From the NCBI RefSeq assembly GCF_000014745.1, contig NC_008347.1:2992001-3056000 (forward strand): 64,000 nucleotides of DNA, written 5' to 3'. A model generated the notes under the pieces. It was not told where the DNA came from, searched no databases, and saw nothing but the letters and a program-made list of their open reading frames with translations. The stretch's first letter is position 1, and each line of letters opens with the position of its first letter. The DNA is from Maricaulis maris MCS10 (GTDB taxonomy: Bacteria; Pseudomonadota; Alphaproteobacteria; Caulobacterales; Maricaulaceae). This document shows positions 24,961 through 49,773 of this stretch, in pieces. The position numbers were made by a program, and so were the translations under genes.

Positions 24961-24976
24961 TTGCATAAATTTGCAA
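24961..24976. promoter_or_regulatory. Palindrome TTGCATAAATTTGCAA upstream of GH97
   Basis: Identical to the 16-mer at 12053-12068. The gap to the GH97 start codon is 38 bp, exactly as for the alpha-amylase at 12 kb. It lies between divergent GH13 and GH97 genes. Confidence 0.65.
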
Positions 24977-25014
24977 GATATGGGCACACTGTCGAAAACC
25001 TGTGGGAGGACATC

Positions 25015-27126
25015 ATGATCTTACGCCAACCGCGATTCGCGGCCGGCTTGGCCGTAGCCCTGTTGACGCTGGCTGCCTGCAATGCCCCGCCGGCCCGGGG
25101 GCAGGACCAATCCCTGCCCGGACCTGACAGTCCGATCTTGGCAGACATCATAGCGGAACCCGTCGCCATTGCCTCGCCGGACGGTCGCCTGAGCATCGAA
25201 TTCTGGAGCGAAGCCGGCCTGCCACGCTATCGCGTCCGGCGCGATGGTGAGGATGTCATCTCACCGTCCATGCTGGGACTGCGCTTTGCCGTGGCTGGCA
25301 ATCTCGAGCGCCAGTTGTGGCTGGTTGACAGTGAGATGTCGGGCTCCCAATCGAGCTGGGAATTGCCCTGGGGCGAGCGTCGGGTTGTCGAAGATCATCA
25401 CAATGAACTGCGGGTCAGCTTCCGGCATGAAGACGATGCCGACCGCGGCTTTGACGTCCGGGTACGTATCTTCGATGACGGGCTGGGCTTTCGCTATGAG
25501 GTCCCTGTCCCGGACGGCGAGCACCGTGCAATCGTCGACGAGGTGACCAGCTTCGCCATGCCGCAGGACAGCGAGACCTGGTGGACCCCGGCGGCCGATT
25601 ATAACCGCTATGAATATGTCTATCGCACCACGCCCCTGATCGAGGTCGATACAGCCCATACGCCCTTTACCGCCCGCCTGCCCGATGACGGTGTCCACGT
25701 CGCGATCCACGAGGCGGCCCTGGTCGATTACTCCGGCATGCGCCTGGACCAGCAGCGCGAGGGTGTCCTGACGGCGGAACTGGCACCGGGGCCTGACGGG
25801 ATTGCCGTCCACAAGGATGGCGCCTTCACCACGCCTTGGCGCACGATCCAGGTGGCGGAGGAGGCCGTCGGCCTCATCAATTCCGACCTTATCCTCAATC
25901 TGAACGAACCCAATGTGCTGGGCGATGTCAGCTGGGTCGAACCGGGCAAATATATCGGCATCTGGTGGGGCATGCACATCAACACGATGACATGGGGCTC
26001 CGGACCCATGCACGGCGCCACGACGGATAACGCCATCGAGTATCTGGACTTTGCCGCCGATAACGGTTTCGCCGGCGTTCTGATCGAGGGCTGGAATATC
26101 GGCTGGGACGGCGACTGGTTCAACAATGGCGCCCTGTTCTCGTTTACCGAGTCCTACCCCGACTTCGACATCGAGGCGGTTACCGACTACGCCCGGACAC
26201 GCGGCGTCCGTTTGATCGGTCATCACGAAACCTCGGGCCATCTGACCAATTACGAAAACCAGATGGAAGACGCGTTCGACCTTTACGAGCGCGTTGGCGT
26301 CACCCAGGTGAAGACCGGCTATGTTGCCGATGCCGGCAATCTCATCCGCATCGATGAAACAGGCGAAGAACGCCATGAATGGCATTACGGACAATATGCC
26401 GTGAACCATCATATCCGCGTGCTCGAAGCCGCGGCCGCGCGCCACATCTCGATCAACCCGCACGAGCCGGTGAAGGATACCGGCCTTCGTCGCACCTATC
26501 CGAACTGGATTTCCCGCGAAGGCGTCCGGGGACAGGAATTCAATGCCTGGGGCGTTCCGCCGAATCCGCCGGAACACACTGCCATGCTGGCCTTCACCCG
26601 CATGCTGGCCGGGCCTGCGGATTTCACGCCTGGCATTTTCGACCTGACCTTCAACGGCCCTGACAGTCCCAACCGGGTGCAGACGACCCTGGCCCGCCAG
26701 TTGGCGCTCTATGTGGTCCTCTACAGCCCCATCCAGATGGCGGCTGACCTGCCCGAGAACTATGTCGCCAACCCCGAACCTTTCCAGTTCATCCGCGATG
26801 TCCCGACTGATTGGGAAGAGTCGATTGCGCTGCAGGGCGACGTCGGTGATTTCATCGTCACCGCACGCCAGGAGCGCGGCGGCGCCGATTGGTATCTCGG
26901 CGCAGCGACAGACGAAGCCGAACGCACCGTAACGGTCCCGCTCGACTTCCTCGAACCCGGCCGCAATTATACCGCGCAGATCTATCGGGATGGCCCGGAT
27001 GCCCACTGGCACGACAACCCGTACGATGTCGCCATTGAAAGCCGCGAGGTCGATGCCGGCACGACGCTCGAACTGTGGTTGGCGGCAGGCGGCGGTGCGG
27101 CCGTCCGCCTCGTCTCATCGGAGTAG
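25015..27126 (+). CDS. Exported GH97 alpha-glucosidase (SusB-like)
   Basis: A 703-residue GH97 enzyme with a lipoprotein-like signal peptide (LTLAAC). The N-terminal beta-supersandwich precedes a (beta/alpha)8 barrel containing GFAGVLIEGWNIGWDGDW and a HHETSGH segment. The C-terminal domain follows a conserved FTPGIFDLTF stretch. Glu residues in the barrel are consistent with the inverting SusB branch, but I cannot exclude a retaining alpha-galactosidase type by eye. ATG 25015 follows GGGAGGA; the in-frame start at 24961 lies in the operator. It leads a unit with an esterase 4 bp downstream and a cupin protein. Confidence 0.9.
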   Translation: MILRQPRFAAGLAVALLTLAACNAPPARGQDQSLPGPDSPILADIIAEPVAIASPDGRLSIEFWSEAGLPRYRVRRDGEDVISPSMLGLRFAVAGNLERQLWLVDSEMSGSQSSWELPWGERRVVEDHHNELRVSFRHEDDADRGFDVRVRIFDDGLGFRYEVPVPDGEHRAIVDEVTSFAMPQDSETWWTPAADYNRYEYVYRTTPLIEVDTAHTPFTARLPDDGVHVAIHEAALVDYSGMRLDQQREGVLTAELAPGPDGIAVHKDGAFTTPWRTIQVAEEAVGLINSDLILNLNEPNVLGDVSWVEPGKYIGIWWGMHINTMTWGSGPMHGATTDNAIEYLDFAADNGFAGVLIEGWNIGWDGDWFNNGALFSFTESYPDFDIEAVTDYARTRGVRLIGHHETSGHLTNYENQMEDAFDLYERVGVTQVKTGYVADAGNLIRIDETGEERHEWHYGQYAVNHHIRVLEAAAARHISINPHEPVKDTGLRRTYPNWISREGVRGQEFNAWGVPPNPPEHTAMLAFTRMLAGPADFTPGIFDLTFNGPDSPNRVQTTLARQLALYVVLYSPIQMAADLPENYVANPEPFQFIRDVPTDWEESIALQGDVGDFIVTARQERGGADWYLGAATDEAERTVTVPLDFLEPGRNYTAQIYRDGPDAHWHDNPYDVAIESREVDAGTTLELWLAAGGGAAVRLVSSE

Positions 27127-30041: not shown

Positions 30042-30265
30042 CACCACAACCTCCTAAAATAACATCATTATTATAGCCTGCCGGGTCACATTGGATAGCC
30101 GCGGCAGACCTCGCAGATCGTGACACCAGGAAGGGTCTGGTCTGAGGGTCGGGTGAAACACCTAGCCCTATCGAGGGCTCGCTCCAGTCGGCATCGGGAA
30201 AGCAGAACTGGGCGGTGCCTCTACACGGCCAGCCTCAGAAGGCTGCACCCAATAGCGTCAGCCTT

Positions 30266-30871
30266 TTATGCCAGAAAGCCAGCCTGGATGGCCTTAACGA
30301 CAACTTCGGTCCGGTTGCGGGCATCGAGTTTCAGGGAGAGAGAGCGCAGGTGGAGCTTCACTGTCGTTTCCTGGATTTCGAGACTGCGGGCAATTTCCTT
30401 GTTGGCCTCGCCCCGTTGCAGGCAGAACAGGACTTCACGTTCGCGCGGCGTCAGCGAGGCGGGCTCATTTTCCGGATCGGTCGTGTGATGGATGGGCGAA
30501 AACACCTGGCCGGCAAGGATGAGCCGGACAGCCGCGACCAGACCATCGGCCGGCATTGTTTTCGGGATGAAGCCCCTGGCACCATTTTCCAGCAACATCT
30601 GAACCTCCATCGGCGAAGCCATGCCGGACAGGATCGCGACCGGCTGGTCGGCATGTCGTTTCATCAGGTCCCTGACATCCTGGACACCCGCGATTCCCGG
30701 CATTCTCAGATCCAACAGGACGAGGTCATATCGGTTGCCATCCGACAAGGAACGCTCAACCTCGTTGCCGGACCGGACCAGCTCAACCTCGGCGTCCGGA
30801 ATGTCGTTCTCCAACAGGGCGCGAACAGCGTCGAGGACGAGATCATGATCGTCGGCAATGAGAATTTTCAT
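30266..30871 (-). CDS. LuxR/NarL-type response regulator of H-NOX pathway
   Basis: A 201-residue response regulator. The receiver domain (residues 1-120) has the acidic pair in IADDHD, phospho-acceptor Asp in LVLLDLRMPG and a Lys in FIPKTMP. The C-terminal LuxR helix-turn-helix (about 140-200) contains LTPREREVLFCLQRGEANKEIARSL. ATG 30871 is used because the receiver starts there; it overlaps the kinase gene by 29 bp, so the two are coupled. It should be the output of the H-NOX/hybrid kinase pair. Target genes are unknown. Confidence 0.92.
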   Translation of the reverse strand: MKILIADDHDLVLDAVRALLENDIPDAEVELVRSGNEVERSLSDGNRYDLVLLDLRMPGIAGVQDVRDLMKRHADQPVAILSGMASPMEVQMLLENGARGFIPKTMPADGLVAAVRLILAGQVFSPIHHTTDPENEPASLTPREREVLFCLQRGEANKEIARSLEIQETTVKLHLRSLSLKLDARNRTEVVVKAIQAGFLA

Positions 30872-32555
30872 GCTCTGTTTCCTGTGTTCGGTCCTGGTCG
30901 ACCTGGTCGTCCACCGGCGCACCGATGGTCTCAATCAGATCGTCGAGTGAAGCCGGTTTGGCAAGCGTGGCGGCGAGCCCGACCGGCAATGGCGGTTGCA
31001 GCGCGCCCGAGCACATCACGATACGGGTGTCCGAGCGGATGGCCAGCAGGGCGCGCACCAGCTCGTCGCCTGACATTTGCGGCATCCGCCGGTCGGTGAC
31101 CACCACTCCAAAAGCCTTGGGGGCGGCCCTGAAGACTTTCAGCGCTTCGACGGGGTCCGTAAAGCCGACCGGGTCCCAGCCAGCGCGTTTGGCCGCCTCG
31201 CAGACGACATTCATCAAGGTCTCGTCATCATCAATGACGAGTGCACCGGTGGCATGACTGACCGCGCCCTCGCTGTCGTCAGCCGCAGCCGGTACAGCGA
31301 TTCCGGCCATCTGGAGCGGCAGATCGACCACAAAGACCGTGCCTTCTGCCGGACGGCTATAGGAGGCAACGCAGGCCTCCTGGCCGGTCAGCAGTGCGTC
31401 GATCGTGGCAAGACCCAGCCCGCGCCCGCGCCCCTTGCTGGACTGAAAGGGTGTGAAGGCCTGGTCGAGGGCCTCCTGGGGCATCCCATTGCCATCATCC
31501 TGGACCACCAGGCGGGCGGCCGGATAATGGCGCAGTTCGCCGCGATGATTGGTGGCTGACGGCTGGAAGGGAAGCTCGACCGGCTCGGCTTTGTCGATGC
31601 GCAGGGTGCGCACCGTGACCGTTCCGCCTGGCCCGAGTGCCTCGCGGGCATTCTTCAACAGATTGGCAACGAGGCGTGCGAACAGGGTGGGGTCGGTTTC
31701 ACACACCAGTCGCTCGTCACTGGCGGCGAGCTCGAGACGATACGGCGCACTGAACTGGTTGGACATCATTTCCGCGACGTCGCGAACAATCTCGTCAATG
31801 GCCCGCGCTTCGCGAACCGGCGTTGCATCGAAGGTGACCAGATCATCGACCAAATCATTGGCCTGGCGGCACGACGTCACGATCCGGTCGAACATCAGCT
31901 CGTCCTTGGGCGATGTATTGCTGTTCCGCAACAGGCGTGCGGACGCATTGATCGCGGTCAGGATATTGGCGAAGTCGTGGGCGACGGATGAGGCCATCCG
32001 CCCCAGCGCATCGCGGCGCTCTGCATCGGCCAGCATGGCCTGCAACTGTTCGCGCTGCCCTTCCCGACGCTTGTCGATCGCAATGTCACGGGTCACGCAG
32101 AGTATGCCGCCATCCGAAAGCGCAGTCAGGGAGAGGCTCTGATGGACTGACGAGCCATCCTGGGCACGCCCCGTCGCCTCGCCGCGCCAATACCCGTCGC
32201 GCGTGAAAGCGGGCATGACCTCGCGTTCGAAGACCGAAAGGACGTCGTCGCTGTAGAAGGTCGTCCACGACCGCCCGAGACAATCATCCACACTGGCATA
32301 GCCGAACATGCTCGCATGCATCGGGTTCATGTAGGTATATACGCCGGTCGCATCGGCGATCGCGACACCATCGGCAGAGACATCAATGGCCGTGCTCAGC
32401 CGCTGCACCTTGGCGGTCTCTTCACTCAGCCGTTCCTTGGCTTCATAGAGGCTTGCCGACTTGGCTTCGAGCACACGCTCAGCTTCACGGCGGGCGGCGG
32501 TTTCCCGGGCCAGCCGCCTTTCAAGCCTGCCAATCTGCTCGTCCTTGTCAGTCAG
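30843..32555 (-). CDS. Hybrid histidine kinase (PAS-HisKA-HATPase-REC), H-NOX partner
   Basis: A cytoplasmic hybrid kinase: coiled coil, PAS domain, dimerisation/phosphoacceptor helix with VAHDFANIL, ATPase domain with NLLKNAREAL (N box), VVQDDGNGMPQ (G1) and RGRGLGLATI (G2), and a C-terminal receiver with DDDE, Asp in VVVTDRRMP and a Lys in LAKP. The first ATG/GTG in frame is at 32474, but the coiled coil (TDKDEQIGRLERRLARE) continues upstream without a stop. A CTG at 32555 forms a CTGA overlap with the H-NOX stop, so I give that as the likely start (570 residues). No membrane segment is present, fitting direct binding to H-NOX. Confidence 0.85.
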   Translation of the reverse strand: MTDKDEQIGRLERRLARETAARREAERVLEAKSASLYEAKERLSEETAKVQRLSTAIDVSADGVAIADATGVYTYMNPMHASMFGYASVDDCLGRSWTTFYSDDVLSVFEREVMPAFTRDGYWRGEATGRAQDGSSVHQSLSLTALSDGGILCVTRDIAIDKRREGQREQLQAMLADAERRDALGRMASSVAHDFANILTAINASARLLRNSNTSPKDELMFDRIVTSCRQANDLVDDLVTFDATPVREARAIDEIVRDVAEMMSNQFSAPYRLELAASDERLVCETDPTLFARLVANLLKNAREALGPGGTVTVRTLRIDKAEPVELPFQPSATNHRGELRHYPAARLVVQDDGNGMPQEALDQAFTPFQSSKGRGRGLGLATIDALLTGQEACVASYSRPAEGTVFVVDLPLQMAGIAVPAAADDSEGAVSHATGALVIDDDETLMNVVCEAAKRAGWDPVGFTDPVEALKVFRAAPKAFGVVVTDRRMPQMSGDELVRALLAIRSDTRIVMCSGALQPPLPVGLAATLAKPASLDDLIETIGAPVDDQVDQDRTQETEHENSHCRRS

Positions 32556-33106
32556 TGTTTCGTCCCAGACACGATCTCGAAGCGCGCTTCGCGCAACGGC
32601 TTGTCGGCATTGTCATTCCTGTGAACAACATATTCGTCGGCTTTGCCATAATGGTCCAGAGCGGCGAGGATCATGCCCTCACACAGGTCGGCCATTGGTC
32701 GGTTCGAATGATAGTCGACGACTAGACGCGTATTACCGTCGCGCGCCGTGACCAGGATCTCCGGTACTTCCGCATCCGGATAGAGTTTGCGCACATCGCG
32801 ATGGATGACGCCGTGAATGCGCTCCATCAGATCGAACGGGTGGGTGATGCCCGGTTGCGCATGCGTAGAGATCAGGGCCGCAAAAAGCGAATTGCCGAAA
32901 CCGACCAGAAGCTCTCTGGCCGACTGGCCGGTCAGCTCTGAAGTCTTCCCGACCAGTGTGAGCATTTCGGTGTGGTCGTAATAACCAACACTCGTATAGG
33001 CACCGCCGGACGGCAGCTCCACCTGATCCAGTACCTTGTCAACCAGAGCCTCGCCGAAAGTGCTTTCTGCGTGGTCGATGAACTGGCGGAAAACAACGCC
33101 CTTCAT
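32552..33106 (-). CDS. H-NOX heme nitric oxide/oxygen-binding sensor
   Basis: A 184-residue heme NO-binding (HNOB) protein. His102 in ERIHGVIHRDVRKLYP aligns with the proximal heme His of soluble guanylate cyclase, eight residues before the conserved Pro, and the heme-propionate motif YxSxR is present as YHSNR (132-136). No distal-pocket Tyr is obvious at the usual place, so NO rather than O2 sensing is more likely. It is the first gene of a three-gene operon with a hybrid kinase and a LuxR regulator, and diverges from hfaABD. NO-bound H-NOX usually inhibits its partner kinase. Confidence 0.93.
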   Translation of the reverse strand: MKGVVFRQFIDHAESTFGEALVDKVLDQVELPSGGAYTSVGYYDHTEMLTLVGKTSELTGQSARELLVGFGNSLFAALISTHAQPGITHPFDLMERIHGVIHRDVRKLYPDAEVPEILVTARDGNTRLVVDYHSNRPMADLCEGMILAALDHYGKADEYVVHRNDNADKPLREARFEIVSGTKH

Positions 33107-33164
33107 GTGTCTACCCTTCTTTTCAATCCCGGCGCCATTGTCGCGCGAGCGGGCGCGAAGACAA

Positions 33165-33257
33165 CCTGACCATTCGGACAGGTAGGTCAGACCCAGTTCA
33201 ACCGGTCGGCCCGGCCTGACCAGGCGAACAGGTACCCTGTCCGAACGATCAGGTCAG
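33165..33257. repeat. Repeat array in the H-NOX/hfaA divergent promoter region
   Basis: CCTGACCATTCGGACAGGT (33165-33183) recurs as CCTGACCAGGCGAACAGGT (33215-33233), a direct repeat spaced exactly 50 bp. An inverted copy with a slightly wider centre, CCTGTCCGAACGATCAGGTCAG, covers 33236-33257. Each unit is itself a CTGACC/GGTCAG-like dyad. Placement between H-NOX and hfaA starts suggests binding sites for a regulator of one or both operons. Confidence 0.55.
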
Positions 33258-33359
33258 CCTGTCCACCTGCCGCTTAGAATGGGTCACCTGGTCAATATCG
33301 CTGCCCGGCGCCGGCTGCCAACTTCGGATCAACAAACAGATGACCCCGAGGAGGCAGCC

Positions 33360-33713
33360 ATGCCCATCGCCAGTTTCGCTCTTGCTGCCGCCCAGATGGC
33401 GACGCCTGTCAGCCTGGACACCGGATTTGCCGTCAACCAGGCAATTGGGTTCCAGAAGGATGCGCAGGGCAACCGGGTTGTACTGTCCGGCACCAGCCAG
33501 CTGTCAGCCGGCACGTCCGGCGGCGGCACCCAGAGCCGGCTCATGCCCAGTTGGGGCGTGACCGCCACGACTAGCCAGGCGACGGCCATCGGCAATCTCG
33601 TTAGCGTCACGATCACCGGCAACAACAATACGGTTCAGCTCGACACCACCCAGATCAATCTCGGCAACCAGACCGCCATCGTCGGCGAGCTGCCGAACGT
33701 GTCGGGGAATTAG
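33360..33713 (+). CDS. hfaA: HfaA-like holdfast anchor protein
   Basis: A 117-residue protein starting at the ATG after a strong GAGGAGG (33349-33355); an in-frame start at 33279 has no ribosome site. It has a short hydrophobic N-terminus (ASFALAAAQM) and a polar, curlin-like C-terminal part with AIGNLVSVTITGNNNTVQLDTTQIN. Its identity rests on order: a CsgG-like HfaB and an HfaD-like repeat protein follow at once, the hfaABD order of Caulobacter. HfaA helps tether the holdfast to the cell envelope and is thought to form amyloid-like polymers. On sequence alone it is weakly recognisable. Confidence 0.8.
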   Translation: MPIASFALAAAQMATPVSLDTGFAVNQAIGFQKDAQGNRVVLSGTSQLSAGTSGGGTQSRLMPSWGVTATTSQATAIGNLVSVTITGNNNTVQLDTTQINLGNQTAIVGELPNVSGN

Positions 33714-33714
33714 G

Positions 33715-34578
33715 ATGAGCTGGATACCCGCCCTCAAAGCCGGTGTGTCGGCGCTCACCCTGTGCGCCATGACCGGCTGCGCCAGCCTCTCCGGCGACTT
33801 CCATGACCACATGGCCGGCTATACAGGCGCCAGGGTGATCGACAATTCGACCGCCTACTCGTCGGATCTGGACTGCCTGTCCCGGACCGCCATGGCCGGT
33901 CGCCCGCGGATTGCCGTGGGTGAGGTCAACGACCTGACCGGGCGGTTTTCCTCGCTCGACGGGACGGTGGCCACCCAGGGTACGGCCTTGATGGTGATGT
34001 CCGCGCTGGATCGGGCGGGCTTCCCGCTCGCCGAACGCCTCGACACGCGGGTCGCCCAGCAGGAGCTGGAATTCGCGAACAGTCGCCTGATCGGGCCGGA
34101 TGGCCAACCGACAGAAAACTACCGCCGGGTCATGGCGGGCTCCATCGCCGGGAGCGACTACATCATTCTCGGCGGCGTCACAGAACTGAATTTCAATCTG
34201 CATTCCGGCGTCGCGGAAGCGCGTATCGGACCGCTGATTGGCGGCCGTCGCCACTATGCGATGACCGTTGGCCTGGACCTTCGCCTGGTCGATGCGACTG
34301 ACCTTCGTGTCATCGACATCGTCAGCCAGAGCAAGGTGATCCGCGGACACGAGATCCGCGCCGGCGTGTTTGAATTCATTGGCGACACAACGCTGGACAT
34401 TGGCATGGGCGAACGCGTCCAGGAGCCGGTCCACACCGCCATCCGAACGATTGTCGAAAGCGCCGTTTTCGACCTCGTCTCAGGCCTTGCCGGCCCCGCC
34501 GCGCAAACCTGTTCAACCGCAGGGACAGCCACGACCGGCACCCCTGTTTCCTTCCAGACCCCCAATTCCGGAGATTAA
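33715..34578 (+). CDS. hfaB: HfaB, CsgG-like outer-membrane secretion lipoprotein
   Basis: A 287-residue CsgG/HfaB-family lipoprotein. The signal ends at a lipobox (LCAMTGC). CsgG features include RIAVGEVNDLTGRF, a GTALMVMSAL helix, GSDYIILGGVTELNFNLHSGVAEARIG and YAMTVGLDLRLVDATDLRVID strands that build the secretion pore. It should export HfaA and HfaD to the cell surface, as CsgG exports curli subunits. The start codon is 1 bp after the hfaA stop, with the ribosome site inside hfaA. This is the firmest member of the triplet. Confidence 0.93.
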   Translation: MSWIPALKAGVSALTLCAMTGCASLSGDFHDHMAGYTGARVIDNSTAYSSDLDCLSRTAMAGRPRIAVGEVNDLTGRFSSLDGTVATQGTALMVMSALDRAGFPLAERLDTRVAQQELEFANSRLIGPDGQPTENYRRVMAGSIAGSDYIILGGVTELNFNLHSGVAEARIGPLIGGRRHYAMTVGLDLRLVDATDLRVIDIVSQSKVIRGHEIRAGVFEFIGDTTLDIGMGERVQEPVHTAIRTIVESAVFDLVSGLAGPAAQTCSTAGTATTGTPVSFQTPNSGD

Positions 34579-34580
34579 TC

Positions 34581-35540
34581 ATGAAACGGTCTGTTCTTCT
34601 CGCCACCGCCCTGGTGGTCCTGTCCGGTCCTGCAGCTTTTGCTCAAGCGACCGATTCCCTCGTCGATGTCGATCTGGGCCTGGGCGATCTCGCCGACGCC
34701 ACTGTTGATCTCGGCGGTGACAACCTGGTTGATGCCGGCGTTGATCTCGGCGGCGCGGATATCCTCGACGCCACGATCGGCCTCGGTGGCGAAAGCCTCG
34801 TCGACGCCAATGTTGACCTCGGTGCCAGCAATGAAGCCGCCGCCAACGCCGTCGACTATGCTACGGGCCAGTCCAATTCCGGCAACCAGGACTCCTATCT
34901 GAACCTGATTGCGACCACCGTCGACGACGTCACCGGGACCTCCGCTTCGATCGGAAACTCCTATTCGCTCGAAGCCGCCGCAAATGTCAGCGCAGACCTG
35001 ACCCAGGGCAATGAAGGCAATGCTGTTGCCGATGCCGACGCCGCCATCATGGCCATTGATACTGCGGCCATCACCGCGGCAGCGATCGGCAACACGGCAT
35101 CCATCTCATCGCCGGCCTCGTTGATCGACATGACCGTTGACCAGAATAATCTCGGCAATCTGACGGCGGATCTGTCCGCAGTGTCGGGCGACGTGACGGA
35201 CGTCAGCATGACCGCCGCTTCAATCGGCAACTCGCTGTCGGTCGAAGTACCGGGCGGCAGCTCGATCACCGCGGCGCAGCGCAATTCCGGCACCATGATT
35301 GCCGAACTCAACGGCTCGCTGGCCGGTTTCTCCGACGCTGCGGTCACCGCCGCTTCGATCGGCAATTCCTACAGCCTGACCAGCCTGAACAGCGCCATTG
35401 CCGGCAATGTCTCAAGCTCGGTCAATCAGTGGAACACGGCCGGCCAACTGTCTGTGCTCAACGCGACGATCGGCTACGGCACCGACGCAGCCGCCACAGC
35501 GGCTGCCATCGGCAACTCCGTCAGCATCAACGTCAATTGA
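34581..35540 (+). CDS. hfaD: HfaD-like repeat surface protein
   Basis: A 319-residue exported protein (signal MKRSVLLATALVVLSGPAAFAQ). Residues about 28-85 are tandem VDLG-type repeats (LVDAxVDLGG, about 15 residues each). The rest is built of 40-45-residue units, each carrying AAxIGNSxS plus QxNxG, reminiscent of curlin repeats. It fits HfaD, the holdfast-anchor protein exposed on the cell surface. It starts 2 bp after hfaB and is followed by a terminator, ending the operon. The low-complexity composition makes distant homology uncertain, but position and repeats agree. Confidence 0.87.
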   Translation: MKRSVLLATALVVLSGPAAFAQATDSLVDVDLGLGDLADATVDLGGDNLVDAGVDLGGADILDATIGLGGESLVDANVDLGASNEAAANAVDYATGQSNSGNQDSYLNLIATTVDDVTGTSASIGNSYSLEAAANVSADLTQGNEGNAVADADAAIMAIDTAAITAAAIGNTASISSPASLIDMTVDQNNLGNLTADLSAVSGDVTDVSMTAASIGNSLSVEVPGGSSITAAQRNSGTMIAELNGSLAGFSDAAVTAASIGNSYSLTSLNSAIAGNVSSSVNQWNTAGQLSVLNATIGYGTDAAATAAAIGNSVSINVN

Positions 35541-35547
35541 GCCAGCG

Positions 35548-35588
35548 AAAGGCGCCGGACCTCCCCCCCTTTTGGGTCCGGCGCCTTT
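35548..35588 (+). terminator. Terminator after hfaD
   Basis: A 14-bp stem AAAGGCGCCGGACC/GGTCCGGCGCCTTT enclosing a C/T-rich loop, right after the hfaD stop. It separates hfaABD from the receiver-YaiO-HEAT-GT2 genes, which start 32 bp further on; those may rely on readthrough or on a promoter near the hairpin. Confidence 0.88.
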
Positions 35589-35620
35589 CAACCTTCACTT
35601 CCATACAGGGAAACATTGCG

Positions 35621-36001
35621 ATGAAACCGATCCTGGTTGTCCAGAATGAGCCAATGATGACAACACTGTTGTGCCACCGCCTGACCATGAATGGTCATTC
35701 GGTGCTCACGGCGATCGACGGTCGCTCGGCCCTCGATCTGGTCAGCTGGGCCCGACCCAAGCTGGTCCTGGTCGACATGCTGTTGCCGGACATGCGCGGC
35801 CTGGACGTCCTGTCGCGCCTGAAGCACCAGCCGGCCACGGCCGATGTCCCGGTCATGATGCTGCTGCCCTATGCCCATGAAGGCGACACCGTGGCCGCCC
35901 TCGAGAGCGGGGCGCACGATTGCCTCGTCAAGCCAATCCAGCCACGTGAGCTGGTGGCGCGCATCGCTGGGGCGTTGTCTCGCCAGAAAGTCGCGGCATG
36001 A
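35621..36001 (+). CDS. Receiver-only response regulator
   Basis: A 126-residue single-domain receiver. Phospho-acceptor Asp is in LVLVDMLLPDM and the conserved Lys in CLVKPIQP. The first acidic pair is altered: VVQNEP in place of DD/DE, so metal binding may be weak. There is no output domain. Its stop overlaps the next start (ATGA). It leads a four-gene unit with a YaiO-like barrel, a HEAT protein and a GT2, suggesting it regulates glycan synthesis by protein contact. Confidence 0.87.
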   Translation: MKPILVVQNEPMMTTLLCHRLTMNGHSVLTAIDGRSALDLVSWARPKLVLVDMLLPDMRGLDVLSRLKHQPATADVPVMMLLPYAHEGDTVAALESGAHDCLVKPIQPRELVARIAGALSRQKVAA

Positions 36002-36774
36002 GCCTCCGATCCTGCTTGTTTGGCGGCCTGGTGGTGACCGGCCTGGTGGCCGGTTCCGCCATGGCTCAGCCTGAAGGCGACTGGACCGCCGATCTGGTGG
36101 TCGAGCACGCCGCCCTGTCGCGGACCGCGCTGGACGACTGGTCCGGGGCCGGGCTGCAAGTGGGCTACCGCAATGCCGACGCTCGCCTGACCTGGGGCCG
36201 CGCCGAATGGTCCCGCCGGTTCGGTACGCAGGACGTCTTTCTGCAGGCCGGTTTGCAGGACCAGTTTGCGGGCGGTGTCGCTTCGGTGGCGCTGGGCAGC
36301 GCATTCGGTGGCGATTTTCGCGAGGATGTCGATTTGCGCCTCGCCTGGACCCGACCCGCCTGGCGGCCTGCTCAAGGGACCGGCGGGACCGATTTGGACC
36401 TGACCGCCCGGTTCGCCGATTACGGCGATGGCGTGGTGACCGTGCTGGCACCTGGCCTTGTCCACTATCTGGCAGGTCACGATGCCTGGCTGTCAGTCTC
36501 GCCGATTTTCGTGCGTGCTTCCGGCGGCGATTGGGAAAGCGGTCTCGCCCTGCGCGGCGACACGGCCCTTGGCGCCAATTGGCGTATCCGCAGCGGGCTG
36601 AGCCTTGCGCCCGATATCGAGGCCGGCCGCGTGGCCCGTACCCGAAGTGTCGAGTTCGGCGTCCGCCGCGCCTTTGGACCGGACCGGGAAATCGGCTGGA
36701 CCGTGTCGCAGGTCGACCGGTCTGGCAGCTATGCGCGCACAGGTATTGCCCTGTCCCTGCGCCAACGTTTCTGA
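35998..36774 (+). CDS. YaiO-like outer-membrane beta-barrel protein
   Basis: A 258-residue exported protein: signal peptide ending MAQ, then alternating amphipathic strands and a terminal Phe (SLRQRF) as expected for a BamA-inserted barrel. Strand spacing and the RRFGTQD and GVRRAFGPDREIGW segments resemble the YaiO family, often placed with glycosyltransferases. It may pass or anchor a polysaccharide made by the GT2 downstream. It overlaps the receiver gene by 4 bp. Confidence 0.75.
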   Translation: MSLRSCLFGGLVVTGLVAGSAMAQPEGDWTADLVVEHAALSRTALDDWSGAGLQVGYRNADARLTWGRAEWSRRFGTQDVFLQAGLQDQFAGGVASVALGSAFGGDFREDVDLRLAWTRPAWRPAQGTGGTDLDLTARFADYGDGVVTVLAPGLVHYLAGHDAWLSVSPIFVRASGGDWESGLALRGDTALGANWRIRSGLSLAPDIEAGRVARTRSVEFGVRRAFGPDREIGWTVSQVDRSGSYARTGIALSLRQRF

Positions 36775-36782
36775 GGACAATC

Positions 36783-37466
36783 ATGCACTCGCTCGAATGG
36801 ATATGGACGGCAGCTTCAATCTTTTGCACGCTTGGGCTCGGCCTTGTGGCCAGCGCCGCGGTCATCATTCTGTTCGAGCGCTGGCAGGCGCCGGTACGCG
36901 CCAGTCGGGATGCCTACCGCACGGCCTGCCTGCTGGATCATGTCGCCACCGGCGCGCCGCTGCCGCGGGTCAAAAGCCGTCGTTCTGCCCGGGCCTGGTC
37001 GCGGATCGCCCGCGAGCTGGCCGAGTTGCTGGCCGGCATGGAAGGAGACGCCCTGCGCCACCTGTCCGATCGCTTCGCCGCCCTGTCACCATCCCGCCAG
37101 CGACCGCTCTGCCTGCCCACCGTCCGGGGCGACGCCTCGCTGGGCCTGGCCATTGCCGATCTTGACAGGATGGCGACCTCCTCGCCGGTGGGCGAGCGCC
37201 GGAAAGCCTTGCGCGCGCTGGTTTGGCGCGGTCATCCCGATGCCACGACAACCTTTATCCGCGCCTTGCGCGATGACGACGCCGAAGTCCGCAGCCTCGC
37301 CCTGGCGGGCCTGGCCGACCTGCGCGTGACAGCCGCCGCCGACCGCATTGCCGAGATGCACAATGATCCGTCCTGGCGGGTGCGGGAGACCGCGCGGCGC
37401 GCCTTGCGGATGATCCATGAGCCTGCCCGTCAGGCCGAGCAGTCAGGAGTGATCCAATGGATATGA
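36783..37466 (+). CDS. Membrane-anchored HEAT-repeat protein
   Basis: A 227-residue protein with one N-terminal membrane helix (residues about 5-30) and a helical cytoplasmic part. The C-terminal 100 residues are HEAT-like: ALVWRGHPDATTTFIRALRDD, then EVRSLALAGLADL and WRVRETARRALRMIH. HEAT repeats act as protein-binding scaffolds, and here could link the receiver to the glycosyltransferase. It overlaps the GT2 gene by 10 bp. The specific role is inferred from context. Confidence 0.8.
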   Translation: MHSLEWIWTAASIFCTLGLGLVASAAVIILFERWQAPVRASRDAYRTACLLDHVATGAPLPRVKSRRSARAWSRIARELAELLAGMEGDALRHLSDRFAALSPSRQRPLCLPTVRGDASLGLAIADLDRMATSSPVGERRKALRALVWRGHPDATTTFIRALRDDDAEVRSLALAGLADLRVTAAADRIAEMHNDPSWRVRETARRALRMIHEPARQAEQSGVIQWI

Positions 37467-38890
37467 TCATCAATTTCTTCGTATGGCCGGACGTGACCTT
37501 CCCGGTCACCTTTCTCATCCTGGCCAGCGCCCTGTTTCAGGACACACTCTACGCTGTGCTGATCGCGATCGCCGGTGTCACCCTGATGCGACGCCGCTTC
37601 GAACCGAATGCGCACAGATTGATGCGGCGGATCGGCCAGGAAGCGCCCCGGGTCAGTATCCTCGCGCCGGCCTATAATGAGGCCGAGACCGTGGTCGATT
37701 GCACCCGGGCCCTGCTGCGTCAGAACCACTCGAACTATGAAGTCATCGTGATCAATGACGGGTCGGGTGACGACACTTTGAACCGGTTGGTGCGGGCTTT
37801 CGATCTGAAACCGGCGGAACGCGAATGTTCGGACCGCCTGGACTTCACGCCGGTGCGCGCGGTCTACCACCGGCCCGGACCGGTCCCGCTCTGGGTGATC
37901 GACAAGGTCAATGGCGGCAAGGCCGACGCCCTCAATGCCGGCATTGCCCATGCGTCCGGCAGCCTCTTTTGCGCCATTGATGCCGATTCACTGCTGGAAG
38001 CCGACGCCCTGATCCGCACCAGCCAGCCCTTTCTCGACAATCCCGACACCGTTGCGGTGGCCGGCACGGTCCGTGTCGCCAATGGATGCCGGTTGCGGGA
38101 AGGCGCGGTCGAAGAAGCCGGCTTGCCGCGCCGCTTCCTGCCGCTCGTGCAGTCGCTGGAATATCTGCGCGCCTTCCTGGTCGCCCGTTTCGCCCTCAGC
38201 GAACTGGGCGCCCTGATGATCGTGTCCGGGGCTTTCGGCATGTTCGACCGGGCCCGCGTGGTCGAGGTCGGCGGCTATGATCCGCGCACGGTCGGCGAAG
38301 ACGCCGAGCTGATCGTCCGCCTACACCGCGACGGTCGCGACAGCGACCGCCCCACCGTGGTGCGCTTCATTCCCGAACCGGTCTGCTGGACACAGGTTCC
38401 CGAGCGCCTGTCCGATCTGGCCGGCCAGCGCCGACGCTGGCAACGCGGCGCTCTGGAGACCCTGTGGCGCCACCGCGACGCCGCGCTTCGCCCCGGCTAC
38501 GGCCTGCCGGGAACGCTGGGGCTTGGCAGCATGATCGTGATCGACGTGATCGGCCCCTGCCTGGAAGTGCTCGGCTATGCCTTGGCCTTCCTGCTTGCCG
38601 CCACAGGGCATATTTCCTGGAGCTGGTTCGCCGCCCTTTTCGCCCTTGTGTGCAGCTTCGGCTTCCTTTTGTCGGCCTCAGCCATCCTGCTGCAGGAGAT
38701 TGAGCTACGCCGCACTGCCTCACTCAAGGCGATCGGCCAGTTGCTGTTCGCGGCGGCGATCGAGAATTTCGGCTATCGGCAGCTCAGCAATATCTGGCGC
38801 CTCGCCGGAACGATCGACTTCCTGAAAGGAAGCAAACATTGGGGCCACATCAAACGCTCCGCCTTCGACACGACAGAAACACCGACCTAG
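37457..38890 (+). CDS. Processive family-2 glycosyltransferase
   Basis: A 477-residue membrane GT2 of the NodC/PgaC/hyaluronan-synthase type. Two N-terminal helices, then a GT-A domain with SILAPAYNEAE, DGSGDDT, the DxD motif in AIDADSLL, VGEDAEL and the processivity motif QRRRWQRG, followed by three or four C-terminal helices. These motifs indicate polymerisation and membrane passage of a beta-linked polysaccharide. With the barrel protein it could form a synthase-dependent export route for a surface glycan near the holdfast-anchor operon. The sugar is not predictable. Confidence 0.9.
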   Translation: MDMIINFFVWPDVTFPVTFLILASALFQDTLYAVLIAIAGVTLMRRRFEPNAHRLMRRIGQEAPRVSILAPAYNEAETVVDCTRALLRQNHSNYEVIVINDGSGDDTLNRLVRAFDLKPAERECSDRLDFTPVRAVYHRPGPVPLWVIDKVNGGKADALNAGIAHASGSLFCAIDADSLLEADALIRTSQPFLDNPDTVAVAGTVRVANGCRLREGAVEEAGLPRRFLPLVQSLEYLRAFLVARFALSELGALMIVSGAFGMFDRARVVEVGGYDPRTVGEDAELIVRLHRDGRDSDRPTVVRFIPEPVCWTQVPERLSDLAGQRRRWQRGALETLWRHRDAALRPGYGLPGTLGLGSMIVIDVIGPCLEVLGYALAFLLAATGHISWSWFAALFALVCSFGFLLSASAILLQEIELRRTASLKAIGQLLFAAAIENFGYRQLSNIWRLAGTIDFLKGSKHWGHIKRSAFDTTETPT

Positions 38891-39094
38891 GCTGAAACCC
38901 AGGCCGAGGGTTGGCGGTATTTGGCGCAATCTGATCGCGGATTATAACTTGGCGCCCCGCATCGTGGCGCGGAATTGCGCCACACCTTGCAAGCCGTTGT
39001 CAGATTTACCCGCCATTTCAGGGAGTTTCCACTGACACGGCCGAATGCTTGAACGGTTCTCGCCGGTGCCCTCCCTAAAACCCAGCGCTCGCTA

Positions 39095-48733: not shown

Positions 48734-49726
48734 ATGAACATCCTGGTAATCGGCGGGGCCGGCTTTATTGGCTCGCATGTCTGCAAGGCAATCGCGGCTC
48801 GGGGTGATTTGCCGATCGTGTTTGATAATCTCTCGCGCGGAAATGCTCATGCCGTGCAGTGGGGGCCGCTTTTCAAAGGCGATGTCCGTGATGCGGCGGC
48901 GCTCGACTTAGTTTTTGGTGACTATACGCCTGTCGCCGTTATGCACTTTGCTGCAAATACTGAGGTCGAAGAGGGTGAGCAGGCGCCTCTGGCCTTTTGG
49001 GACAACAATGTGGGCGGTGTGATCGCGCTGCTTCAGGCCATGCGTCGCGCGGGCTGCGACCGATTGGTCTTTTCCTCTACTTGCGCAACCTACGGCATGA
49101 TTGAGCAGTTTCCTCTCACCGAAGACAGGCTGCAGTTACCAGTCAATGTTTATGGGCGAACCAAGTTGGCAGTTGAACACATGCTGGCTGATGTCAGCCG
49201 GACGGAGGGCTTGCGCTACGCAGCGCTGCGCTATTTCAATGCCGCAGGCGCGAGCCCAGACGGCGAGATCGGTGAGGAGCACAAGCCGGAAACTCATCTG
49301 ATCCCTAATGCCCTAAAGGCCGCCGCAGGCCTGGGCGGCACCATGAAGGTGTTCGGTGGTGACTATGACACGCCAGACGGAACATGCATCCGCGACTACA
49401 TTCATGTCATGGATCTGGCTGCGGCACATCTAGCAGCGCTTGATCGCCTTGGCAGGTACAAGGGGGGAGTTGCTTGCAATGTTGGCACGGGCCAAGGACA
49501 TTCGGTGCGCGACGTGCTCGAAGCCGTTGAGGCTGTGACCGGCAGACCCGTACCGTACGAGCTCCATGACCGCCGGCCCGGCGATCCGCCGCGGCTCGTC
49601 GCGGATGTGACGTTGTCCCGGGACCTTCTGGGCTTCCAGCCGGTAAGCTCGGACTTAGAAACAATCGTACGCACGGCCTGGAATTTTCACCAAGCCAGAT
49701 GGCAAGCGACGGTCGTGTCAGATTAA
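48734..49726 (+). CDS. galE: UDP-glucose 4-epimerase
   Basis: A 330-residue extended short-chain dehydrogenase. NAD-binding GGAGFIGSHVC at residues 7-17, active-site SSTCATYG and YGRTK (Tyr-x-x-x-Lys), RYFNAAGA and CIRDYIHVMDLA are all diagnostic of GalE. It interconverts UDP-glucose and UDP-galactose for cell-surface glycans. It sits intact between IS remnants, 2 kb from a glycan-modifying fusion gene, and its base composition is more AT-rich than that of the first 38 kb, suggesting it came with a surface-polysaccharide island. The 209 bp before it (48525-48733) hold no recognisable gene. Confidence 0.95.
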   Translation: MNILVIGGAGFIGSHVCKAIAARGDLPIVFDNLSRGNAHAVQWGPLFKGDVRDAAALDLVFGDYTPVAVMHFAANTEVEEGEQAPLAFWDNNVGGVIALLQAMRRAGCDRLVFSSTCATYGMIEQFPLTEDRLQLPVNVYGRTKLAVEHMLADVSRTEGLRYAALRYFNAAGASPDGEIGEEHKPETHLIPNALKAAAGLGGTMKVFGGDYDTPDGTCIRDYIHVMDLAAAHLAALDRLGRYKGGVACNVGTGQGHSVRDVLEAVEAVTGRPVPYELHDRRPGDPPRLVADVTLSRDLLGFQPVSSDLETIVRTAWNFHQARWQATVVSD

Positions 49727-49773
49727 ACGCAGGTTGAGCGCGATCGCTAGATTTCGAAGCGTCGGCCGACGCG

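Follow-up and report, generated by a model that had tools for sequence, protein, structure and literature searches.

Between two divergent operons of Maricaulis maris MCS10, one encoding an H-NOX haem sensor, a hybrid kinase and a NarL/LuxR-type response regulator (hnoX, hnoK and hnoR) and the other a second set of holdfast anchor-like genes (hfaA2, hfaB2 and hfaD2), a conserved dyad operator was found, and H-NOX, HnoK and HnoR probably form a self-contained nitric oxide (NO) switch that would act directly on the promoter of a surface fibre. The locus was analyzed within a window of 64,000 nucleotides, i.e., positions 2992001-3056000 of the single-contig genome of 3,368,780 bases (handle G000), and all positions given below refer to this window. 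With somewhat less confidence, the switch appears to be portable, as the three proteins and the operator are joined to unrelated fibre operons in relatives, and control would be exerted at the promoter rather than via cyclic di-GMP (c-di-GMP).

The divergent operons and their conservation

The minus-strand genes hnoR-hnoK-hnoX are divergent from the plus-strand genes hfaA2-hfaB2-hfaD2, and 253 bp separate the start of hnoX (33106) from that of hfaA2 (33360), in full agreement with the shared divergent region of the initial annotation. The following features were assigned:

30266-30871, minus strand: hnoR, NarL/LuxR-type response regulator (Pfam Response_reg 73.3 bits, GerE 64.5 bits)
30843-32555, minus strand: hnoK, hybrid kinase with the order coiled coil-PAS-HisKA-HATPase-REC (Pfam domains)
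32552-33106, minus strand: hnoX, H-NOX haem sensor (Pfam HNOB 97.7 bits, cut-off 25.5)
33164-33183, no strand: operator 1, ACCTGACCATTCGGACAGGT, centre 67.5 bp before hnoX
33214-33233, no strand: operator 2, GCCTGACCAGGCGAACAGGT, centre 136.5 bp before hfaA2
33235-33254, no strand: operator 3, CCCTGTCCGAACGATCAGGT, centre 115.5 bp before hfaA2
33294-33299, plus strand: AATATC, possible -10 element of hfaA2, suggested by conserved spacing
33360-33713, plus strand: hfaA2, HfaA/curlin-like fibre subunit (NCBIfam HfaA 42.1 bits, cut-off 50)
33715-34578, plus strand: hfaB2, CsgG-like outer-membrane lipoprotein, HfaB paralogue (Pfam CsgG 64.4 bits; NCBIfam HfaB 236.8 bits, cut-off 300)
34581-35540, plus strand: hfaD2, repetitive secreted HfaD-like protein (NCBIfam HfaD 39.4 bits, cut-off 100)

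An operon of H-NOX, hybrid kinase and LuxR-type regulator genes had been annotated initially; the genes were recovered with Pfam, but the range had been set too short, because hnoR overlaps it at its 5' end only. HnoR, which starts with MKILIADDHD, combines the REC and GerE domains of NarL/FixJ response regulators. A relative of the H-NOX protein in the PDB is 6ocv (E 1.5e-27). The start codon of hnoK is uncertain, as the first ATG/GTG/TTG occurs at 32474 and no such codon is present near the position where the homologues start. A candidate CTG start overlaps the hnoX stop codon (CTGA, 32552-32558), and it would match a 4-base overlap of the open reading frames in a Hyphomonas relative (G031, L039 7905-7908). 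In-frame, hfaA2 could be extended in the 5' direction up to 33279.

Typical haem motif features of H-NOX proteins are the proximal His and Y-x-S-x-R. In a 5-row alignment H102, Y132, S134 and R136 were invariant, and the Y-x-S-x-R motif was also present in the five other loci of the clade described below. The H-NOX of the window has a single cysteine (C142), while the nine other clade members have one or two. Redox-sensing H-NOX proteins of the C. crescentus and V. cholerae type contain a zinc site of three Cys and one His/Gln (PMC12329717), which was found in none of the ten clade members; with its one cysteine the window protein thus lacks the zinc/cysteine switch.

The conservation of the linkage was analyzed with genomes sampled from the order. 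H-NOX was present in 41 of 200 genomes and an HfaB match at E 0.001 in 115 (95 over the cut-off), and 27 genomes held both. Among the matches listed, H-NOX and HfaB genes within 20 kb of one another occurred only in M. maris MCS10 (G000), M. maris DSM 4734 (G108), Henriciella marina G21632-S1 (G011), Hyphomonas sp. L-53-1-40 (G031) and Hyphomonas atlantica 22II1-22F38 (G120). From these five loci H-NOX and HfaB2 profiles were built. At E 1e-5 the H-NOX profile matched 50 of 398 order genomes, six of them with at least 329.8 bits and the next with 152.6 bits, and at E 1e-75 the HfaB2 profile retrieved exactly the same six of the 398 genomes, with at least 556.7 bits. The sixth genome, G690, was found after the profiles had been built and was not among their inputs. 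The divergent arrangement of hnoR-hnoK-hnoX and hfaA2-hfaB2-hfaD2 is kept in all six genomes of this subclass, and sequence identities to the other five loci range from 68 to 94% for hnoR, from 56 to 92% for hnoK and from 47 to 96% for hfaD2. At the genus level 5 of 19 genomes contained any H-NOX, of which G000 and G108 carry this subclass. A class-wide search with HfaB2 (385 genomes, E 1e-40) yielded a best match of 236 bits outside the window genome and none in the subclass. A scan of the genome contigs with short peptide patterns returned at least 8 loci. The neighbourhood that had been proposed from the window is therefore conserved in relatives, and the link between an NO-sensor operon and hfa-like genes is well supported by this conservation, by the near-fixed distance of the operator to hfaA and by the same operator at a fibre operon of the sister clade (see below).

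The hfa genes of the window were then assigned. The Caulobacter holdfast anchor genes have the order A-B-D. All three genes of the window score below the equivalog cut-offs, and a canonical hfaB is present elsewhere in the genome (C1:1178180-1178947, 418 bits); therefore, they represent a second set. HfaB2 and the canonical HfaB share 41% identity. In an HfaB tree of 29 rows, for which the program warned of long branches, the six H-NOX-linked rows formed their own clade (100/100), outside of which stood 11 weakly grouped canonical rows (58/91) and 12 rows of another paralogue. The latter rows (L130-L141) all group together (12/12, 100/99) and come from other Maricaulis and from other families. 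H. marina also has a canonical hfaB besides the linked one; the genomes G031 and G120 gave no HfaB match other than the linked protein. Canonical holdfast anchor genes were consequently rejected as the identity of the set, so that the HfaA-, HfaB- and HfaD-like genes in A-B-D order proposed initially were verified, but their identity as the anchor was not. HfaB2 has a lipobox (TGC), and a lipoprotein with a CsgG domain next to a curlin-like gene is characteristic of CsgG/HfaB-type fibre export operons. As the set is paralogous to the anchor genes, its product is more probably a curli-like fibre of its own than the anchor, with G031 and G120 as possible exceptions. The Caulobacter crescentus anchor genes likewise comprise a curlin-like HfaA, a CsgG-like HfaB and HfaD, with HfaA and HfaB described as serving the holdfast anchor (PMC6707917); in contrast to them, the window set, which belongs to a separate clade and has sub-cut-off scores, occurs in addition to a canonical hfaB and in linkage with an NO sensor. 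A genome report describes Hyphomonas neptunium as lacking most genes for the anchor and for holdfast synthesis, whereas holdfasts are formed by other species of the genus (PMC3368421).

The dyad operator and the sister clade

A dyad of 18-20 bp with the consensus CCTGWCC-N4-GGWCAGG occurs three times in the intergenic region, twice in direct and once in inverted orientation. Repeats at 33165-33257 had been noted initially as possible binding sites of the regulator; the repeats turned out to be real, and a role as regulator sites is backed by the comparison, as the dyad was present in all six hfa-type intergenic regions at a near-fixed distance. In G031, G120 and G690 it has the form ACCTGACC-AAAA-GGTCAGG. 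The centre of the hfaA-proximal dyad lies before the hfaA start by 115.5 bp in G000 and G108, by 114.5 bp in G011 and G031, and by 116.5 bp in G120 and G690. This spacing is kept although, as judged by eye, most of the intervening sequence differs between M. maris/Henriciella and Hyphomonas. Counted from the end of the 20-mer, the sequence AATAT starts at base 40 in four loci (G000, G108, G011, G031) and at base 41 in the other two (G120, G690). It could be a -10 box, which would place the dyad near -61 of the hfaA2 promoter, the usual position of an activator, and candidate -10 elements on the hnoX side could put a dyad at about -42. Everywhere else in the 64-kb window the match to the operator stays below 13 of 16 letters.

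As a 20-bp dyad of the form ACCTG-N10-CAGGT, the operator resembles lux boxes, with which it shares the length of 20 bp, the ACCTG/CAGGT arms and a LuxR/GerE-type helix-turn-helix in the proposed binding protein. In contrast to the regulators of lux systems, HnoR has a receiver domain and not a domain binding acyl-homoserine lactones (AHL). A search for the Autoind_bind domain of AHL-binding LuxR proteins gave no match in the genome, while the control was matched in E. coli, and a quorum-sensing LuxR was therefore rejected as the binder of the dyad. LuxI was not matched either, a search that is uninformative because its control was matched nowhere. The lack of an AHL-binding LuxR left the GerE-type HnoR as the natural candidate, and it is likely to be the protein that binds the operator.

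The operator was also encountered outside the hfa-type loci. Sister loci were defined as H-NOX relatives outside the six with a full-length HnoK homologue (match >200 bits), and four of them were found (G764, G169, G174 and G680). In an H-NOX tree of 51 rows the ten loci formed one group (95/97), in which the six hfa-type loci (100/99) and the four others (99/97) each stood together; the program warned of a possible misplacement of some long branches in other parts of the tree. In three of the four sister loci (G169, G764, G174) the operator precedes a DUF4402/chaperone pilus-like operon. The gene order in G169 is hnoX, hnoK, a perfect dyad (ACCTGTCCAATTGGACAGGT), two DUF4402 genes (116.8 and 93.8 bits), a gene for a PapD-like chaperone, one for a usher-like protein of 900 amino acids and, at the end of the pilus-like operon, an hnoR homologue (43% identity to HnoR of the window over 202 amino acids). 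A second dyad (CACTGACCAAAAGGTCAGGT) is found 79.5 bp before its hnoX. The names chaperone and usher are based on position and partial similarity, because the chaperone reached 18.9 bits for PapD_N (cut-off 23) and 16.6 bits for a fimbrial chaperone model (cut-off 357), and no usher model in Pfam or NCBIfam matched the 900-amino-acid protein. In G764 hnoX, hnoK and the dyad are followed by a DUF4402-like gene (67% identity to that of G169), a chaperone-like gene and an incomplete usher-like gene at the contig end. G174 has variant, weaker dyads before hnoX and before a DUF4402-like gene, which is followed by a chaperone-like gene and the contig end. In G680 a variant dyad precedes hnoX, hnoR follows hnoK and is cut by the contig end, and no fibre operon was seen before that end. 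Because the relatives keep the sensor and the operator even where the fibre type differs, NO probably decides on fibre growth directly. G169 holds two H-NOX loci (L101 and L118), which belong to different clades and have different kinases.

For a quantitative comparison the consensus was widened to CCTRWCC-N4-GGWYAGG, and the best site up to 250 bp upstream of hnoX was scored (maximum 14). Nine of the ten clade loci had a best site of at least 13, a count that is partly circular and thus speaks less strongly for the switch, as the consensus had been learnt from the hfa-type loci and its R and Y letters were widened after G174 and G680; G690, G764 and G169 had come from profile searches or from scans with the consensus as it was before widening. 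None of 41 distinct regions (350 bases around the starts of H-NOX genes outside the clade, including four from Gammaproteobacteria) reached 13, the maximum being 12. With first-order Markov copies of six clade regions, 8 of 12,000 trials reached 13. The exact dyad was present in 27 of 378 genomes, namely the six system genomes, G169 (beside its hnoX-hnoK) and 20 others; G764 was outside this sample. At L102, L112 and L113 the exact dyad lies inside a predicted open reading frame of three genomes, which is presumably the cell-wall gene mraY, and it probably occurs by chance in conserved coding sequence.

Proposed mechanism and alternative explanations

From the gene content, the conserved linkage, the operator and its spacing we infer the following mechanism. 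HnoK would be active in the absence of NO and would control the phosphorylation of HnoR. A dimer of HnoR would bind to the dyads and would thereby control its own operon as well as the divergent hfaA2-hfaB2-hfaD2, with phosphorylated HnoR (HnoR~P) activating the fibre promoter. The hfa2 genes would make a curli/HfaA-like fibre, which would be exported through the CsgG-like HfaB2. Binding of NO by H-NOX would set the activity of HnoK; inhibition of the kinase would result in less HnoR~P and a lowered fibre production. That NO acts as an off-switch was deduced from the operator positions and from other H-NOX/kinase systems, in which the NO-bound H-NOX is described to inhibit its kinase (PMC12329717); in V. 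fischeri HnoX is reported to inhibit HahK and thereby biofilm (PMC12369376). The operator as the target is the best-supported step of the mechanism, and the sign, i.e., that NO would lower fibre production, is the weakest.

Several further observations weigh against such a switch. In G764 the best site upstream of hnoX scores 9/14, its dyad preceding the pilus-like operon, and the 20 kb examined, in which the contig ends inside the usher-like gene, did not reveal an hnoR. Among the 20 other genomes with an exact dyad 12 loci were inspected, and no module homologue was present in the open reading frames within about 3.5 kb. When one mismatch was allowed, the whole-genome count was 58/66 for the dyad and 55/63 for a reversed-pattern control, so that the loose form is no commoner than the control; a genome-wide dyad regulon was rejected for this reason, and no wider regulon is claimed. 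A looser pattern had five exact places outside the locus in the genome, none of them beside a recognised surface-fibre gene. HfaA2 of M. maris and Henriciella (33360-33420; L041 8745) has an unusual N-terminus, which is short, hydrophobic and devoid of positive charges at the assigned start. The Hyphomonas copies, unlike these, have an ordinary-looking signal peptide. Furthermore, the Fe(II)-NO form of the C. crescentus H-NOX is reported not to inhibit HnoK (PMC12329717), and an NO response can therefore not be assumed for every H-NOX. Transfer of the phosphate to HnoR is not self-evident for HnoK, a hybrid kinase with its own REC domain; no HPt model of Pfam or NCBIfam matched any of the ten proteins from HnoR to the glycosyltransferase at the right end of the locus (see below).

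Four alternative explanations were considered. NO might control holdfast anchoring itself, HfaABD2 anchoring the holdfast polysaccharide, as had been proposed initially. The gene order, the similarity of HfaB2 to the canonical HfaB and the sole HfaB matches in G031 and G120 are in accord with this, and for these two genomes it is possible. The sub-cut-off scores of all three proteins, the clade of HfaB2 apart from the 11 canonical rows and the canonical hfaB genes of M. maris and H. marina make it rather unlikely as a general explanation, and the claim was not supported as such. It is still less likely that the dyad is the site of a different transcription factor and that H-NOX/HnoK acts elsewhere, e.g., on c-di-GMP as in Shewanella. 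The likeness of the dyad to lux boxes would fit another factor, but the genome lacks an Autoind_bind protein, no c-di-GMP enzyme family of Pfam or NCBIfam was matched by any of the ten proteins between HnoR and the glycosyltransferase (both included), and the operator accompanies the H-NOX/HnoK clade also where the fibre-type operons are unrelated, even though H-NOX is described as often working through c-di-GMP (PMC10746521).

That the H-NOX of the window senses redox or another ligand instead of NO was judged improbable. Such a role has been described for C. crescentus, where oxidation of the cysteines that bind zinc switches the H-NOX (PMC12329717), but the Cys-rich zinc site is missing in the clade. 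In addition, the O2-binding distal Tyr is probably replaced: Leu141 stands at the position that we take to be that of this residue in the Thermoanaerobacter H-NOX. Finally, the two operons could be adjacent only through shared travel on a horizontally moved cassette. Positions 30255-38895 are 90.6% identical over 8.6 kb to DSM 4734 (L038 5704-14342) in a comparison covering 20 kb; because the similarity stops just outside the stop codons of hnoR and of the glycosyltransferase gene and the flanks are unmatched, the block behaves as a cassette. HfaB2 of M. maris and H. marina is 80% identical, while the canonical HfaB proteins share 56%, which hints at horizontal transfer. Chance linkage, however, would leave the near-fixed distance between operator and hfaA and the operator at the unrelated pilus-like operon unexplained, and it is very unlikely to be the whole explanation. 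Thus, an NO switch at the fibre promoter is favoured over these alternatives.

Related H-NOX systems are known from other bacteria. The HnoX-HahK-SypF/SypG pathway of V. fischeri also starts with an operon of NO sensor and kinase and ends in a DNA-binding regulator of a surface adhesin, but its kinase acts via SypF/LuxU on SypG, and its product is the syp polysaccharide (PMC12369376). In the window, in contrast, a NarL-type regulator travels with the sensor and shares the promoter region of its target, which looks like a protein fibre. C. crescentus has an H-NOX (CC2992) with an adjacent kinase, HnoK (CC2993), which contains a response regulator domain as in M. maris, and HnoK is the only neighbour named in the accessible parts of the two reports (PMC10746521, PMC12329717). 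Its hnox mutant was reported to have more biofilm and c-di-GMP (PMC10746521). The C. crescentus protein differs in being activated by Cys/Zn oxidation, its Fe(II)-NO form being inactive, and direct phosphorylation targets of its HnoK are reported not to have been identified (PMC12329717); the window protein has no such zinc site. H-NOX pathways, as far as described in the excerpts of these sources, end in c-di-GMP enzymes or shared phosphorelays. Here, the sensor and the kinase stand together with a DNA-binding regulator and a candidate operator next to a single clear target, and the operator is retained where this target has been exchanged naturally (a curli-like fibre in one clade, a pilus-like operon in the other). 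This opens the DNA target of an H-NOX pathway to direct testing. An NO-gated surface fibre also suggests a reason why some marine stalked bacteria have a second hfa-like set. In the literature searched, as far as its text was accessible, no report of an H-NOX/hfa linkage or of the dyad operator was found.

The adjacent glycan unit and the surroundings of the locus

Downstream of hfaD2 the following features were assigned:

35547-35589, plus strand: strong terminator-like hairpin that separates hfaD2 from the glycan unit (-32.7 kcal/mol, z -5.7)
35621-36001, plus strand: stand-alone receiver protein (Pfam Response_reg 79.4 bits)
35998-36774, plus strand: YaiO-type outer-membrane barrel (TIGR04390, 159 bits)
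36783-37466, plus strand: HEAT-repeat protein (Pfam HEAT_2 39.9 bits) with an N-terminal hydrophobic segment recognised in the sequence
37457-38890, plus strand: GT2 glycosyltransferase, PgaC/IcaA-like (PgaC model 128.9 bits, cut-off 422.3; Pfam GT2 models)

All four domains of the predicted receiver-YaiO-HEAT-GT2 unit were recovered by profile matches. It had further been suggested that NO sets a surface glycan through this unit, and this turned out to be weak. The unit is present beside the module in only three of the six genomes (G000, G108 and G011), the hairpin lies between it and hfaD2, and no operator scoring 13/16 precedes it; it was therefore rejected as part of the switch. The hairpin is without a good T tail and was absent from the output of the terminator scan. 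A search of 17 genomes at E 1e-60 revealed relatives of the GT2 protein elsewhere in the genome in G690 (47%) and G083 (45%), and no match in G031 or G120.

Upstream of the locus, positions 24961-27126 encode a protein like retaining alpha-galactosidase (271 bits, cut-off 800). MCS10 and DSM 4734 are two strains of probably one named species, and the module is found in different surroundings in them. A 54-base stretch (49711-49764) is 81% identical to L038 14790-14838; it is situated about 0.45 kb outside the right end of the cassette in DSM 4734 and far from the cassette in the window, and it could be a small dispersed element.

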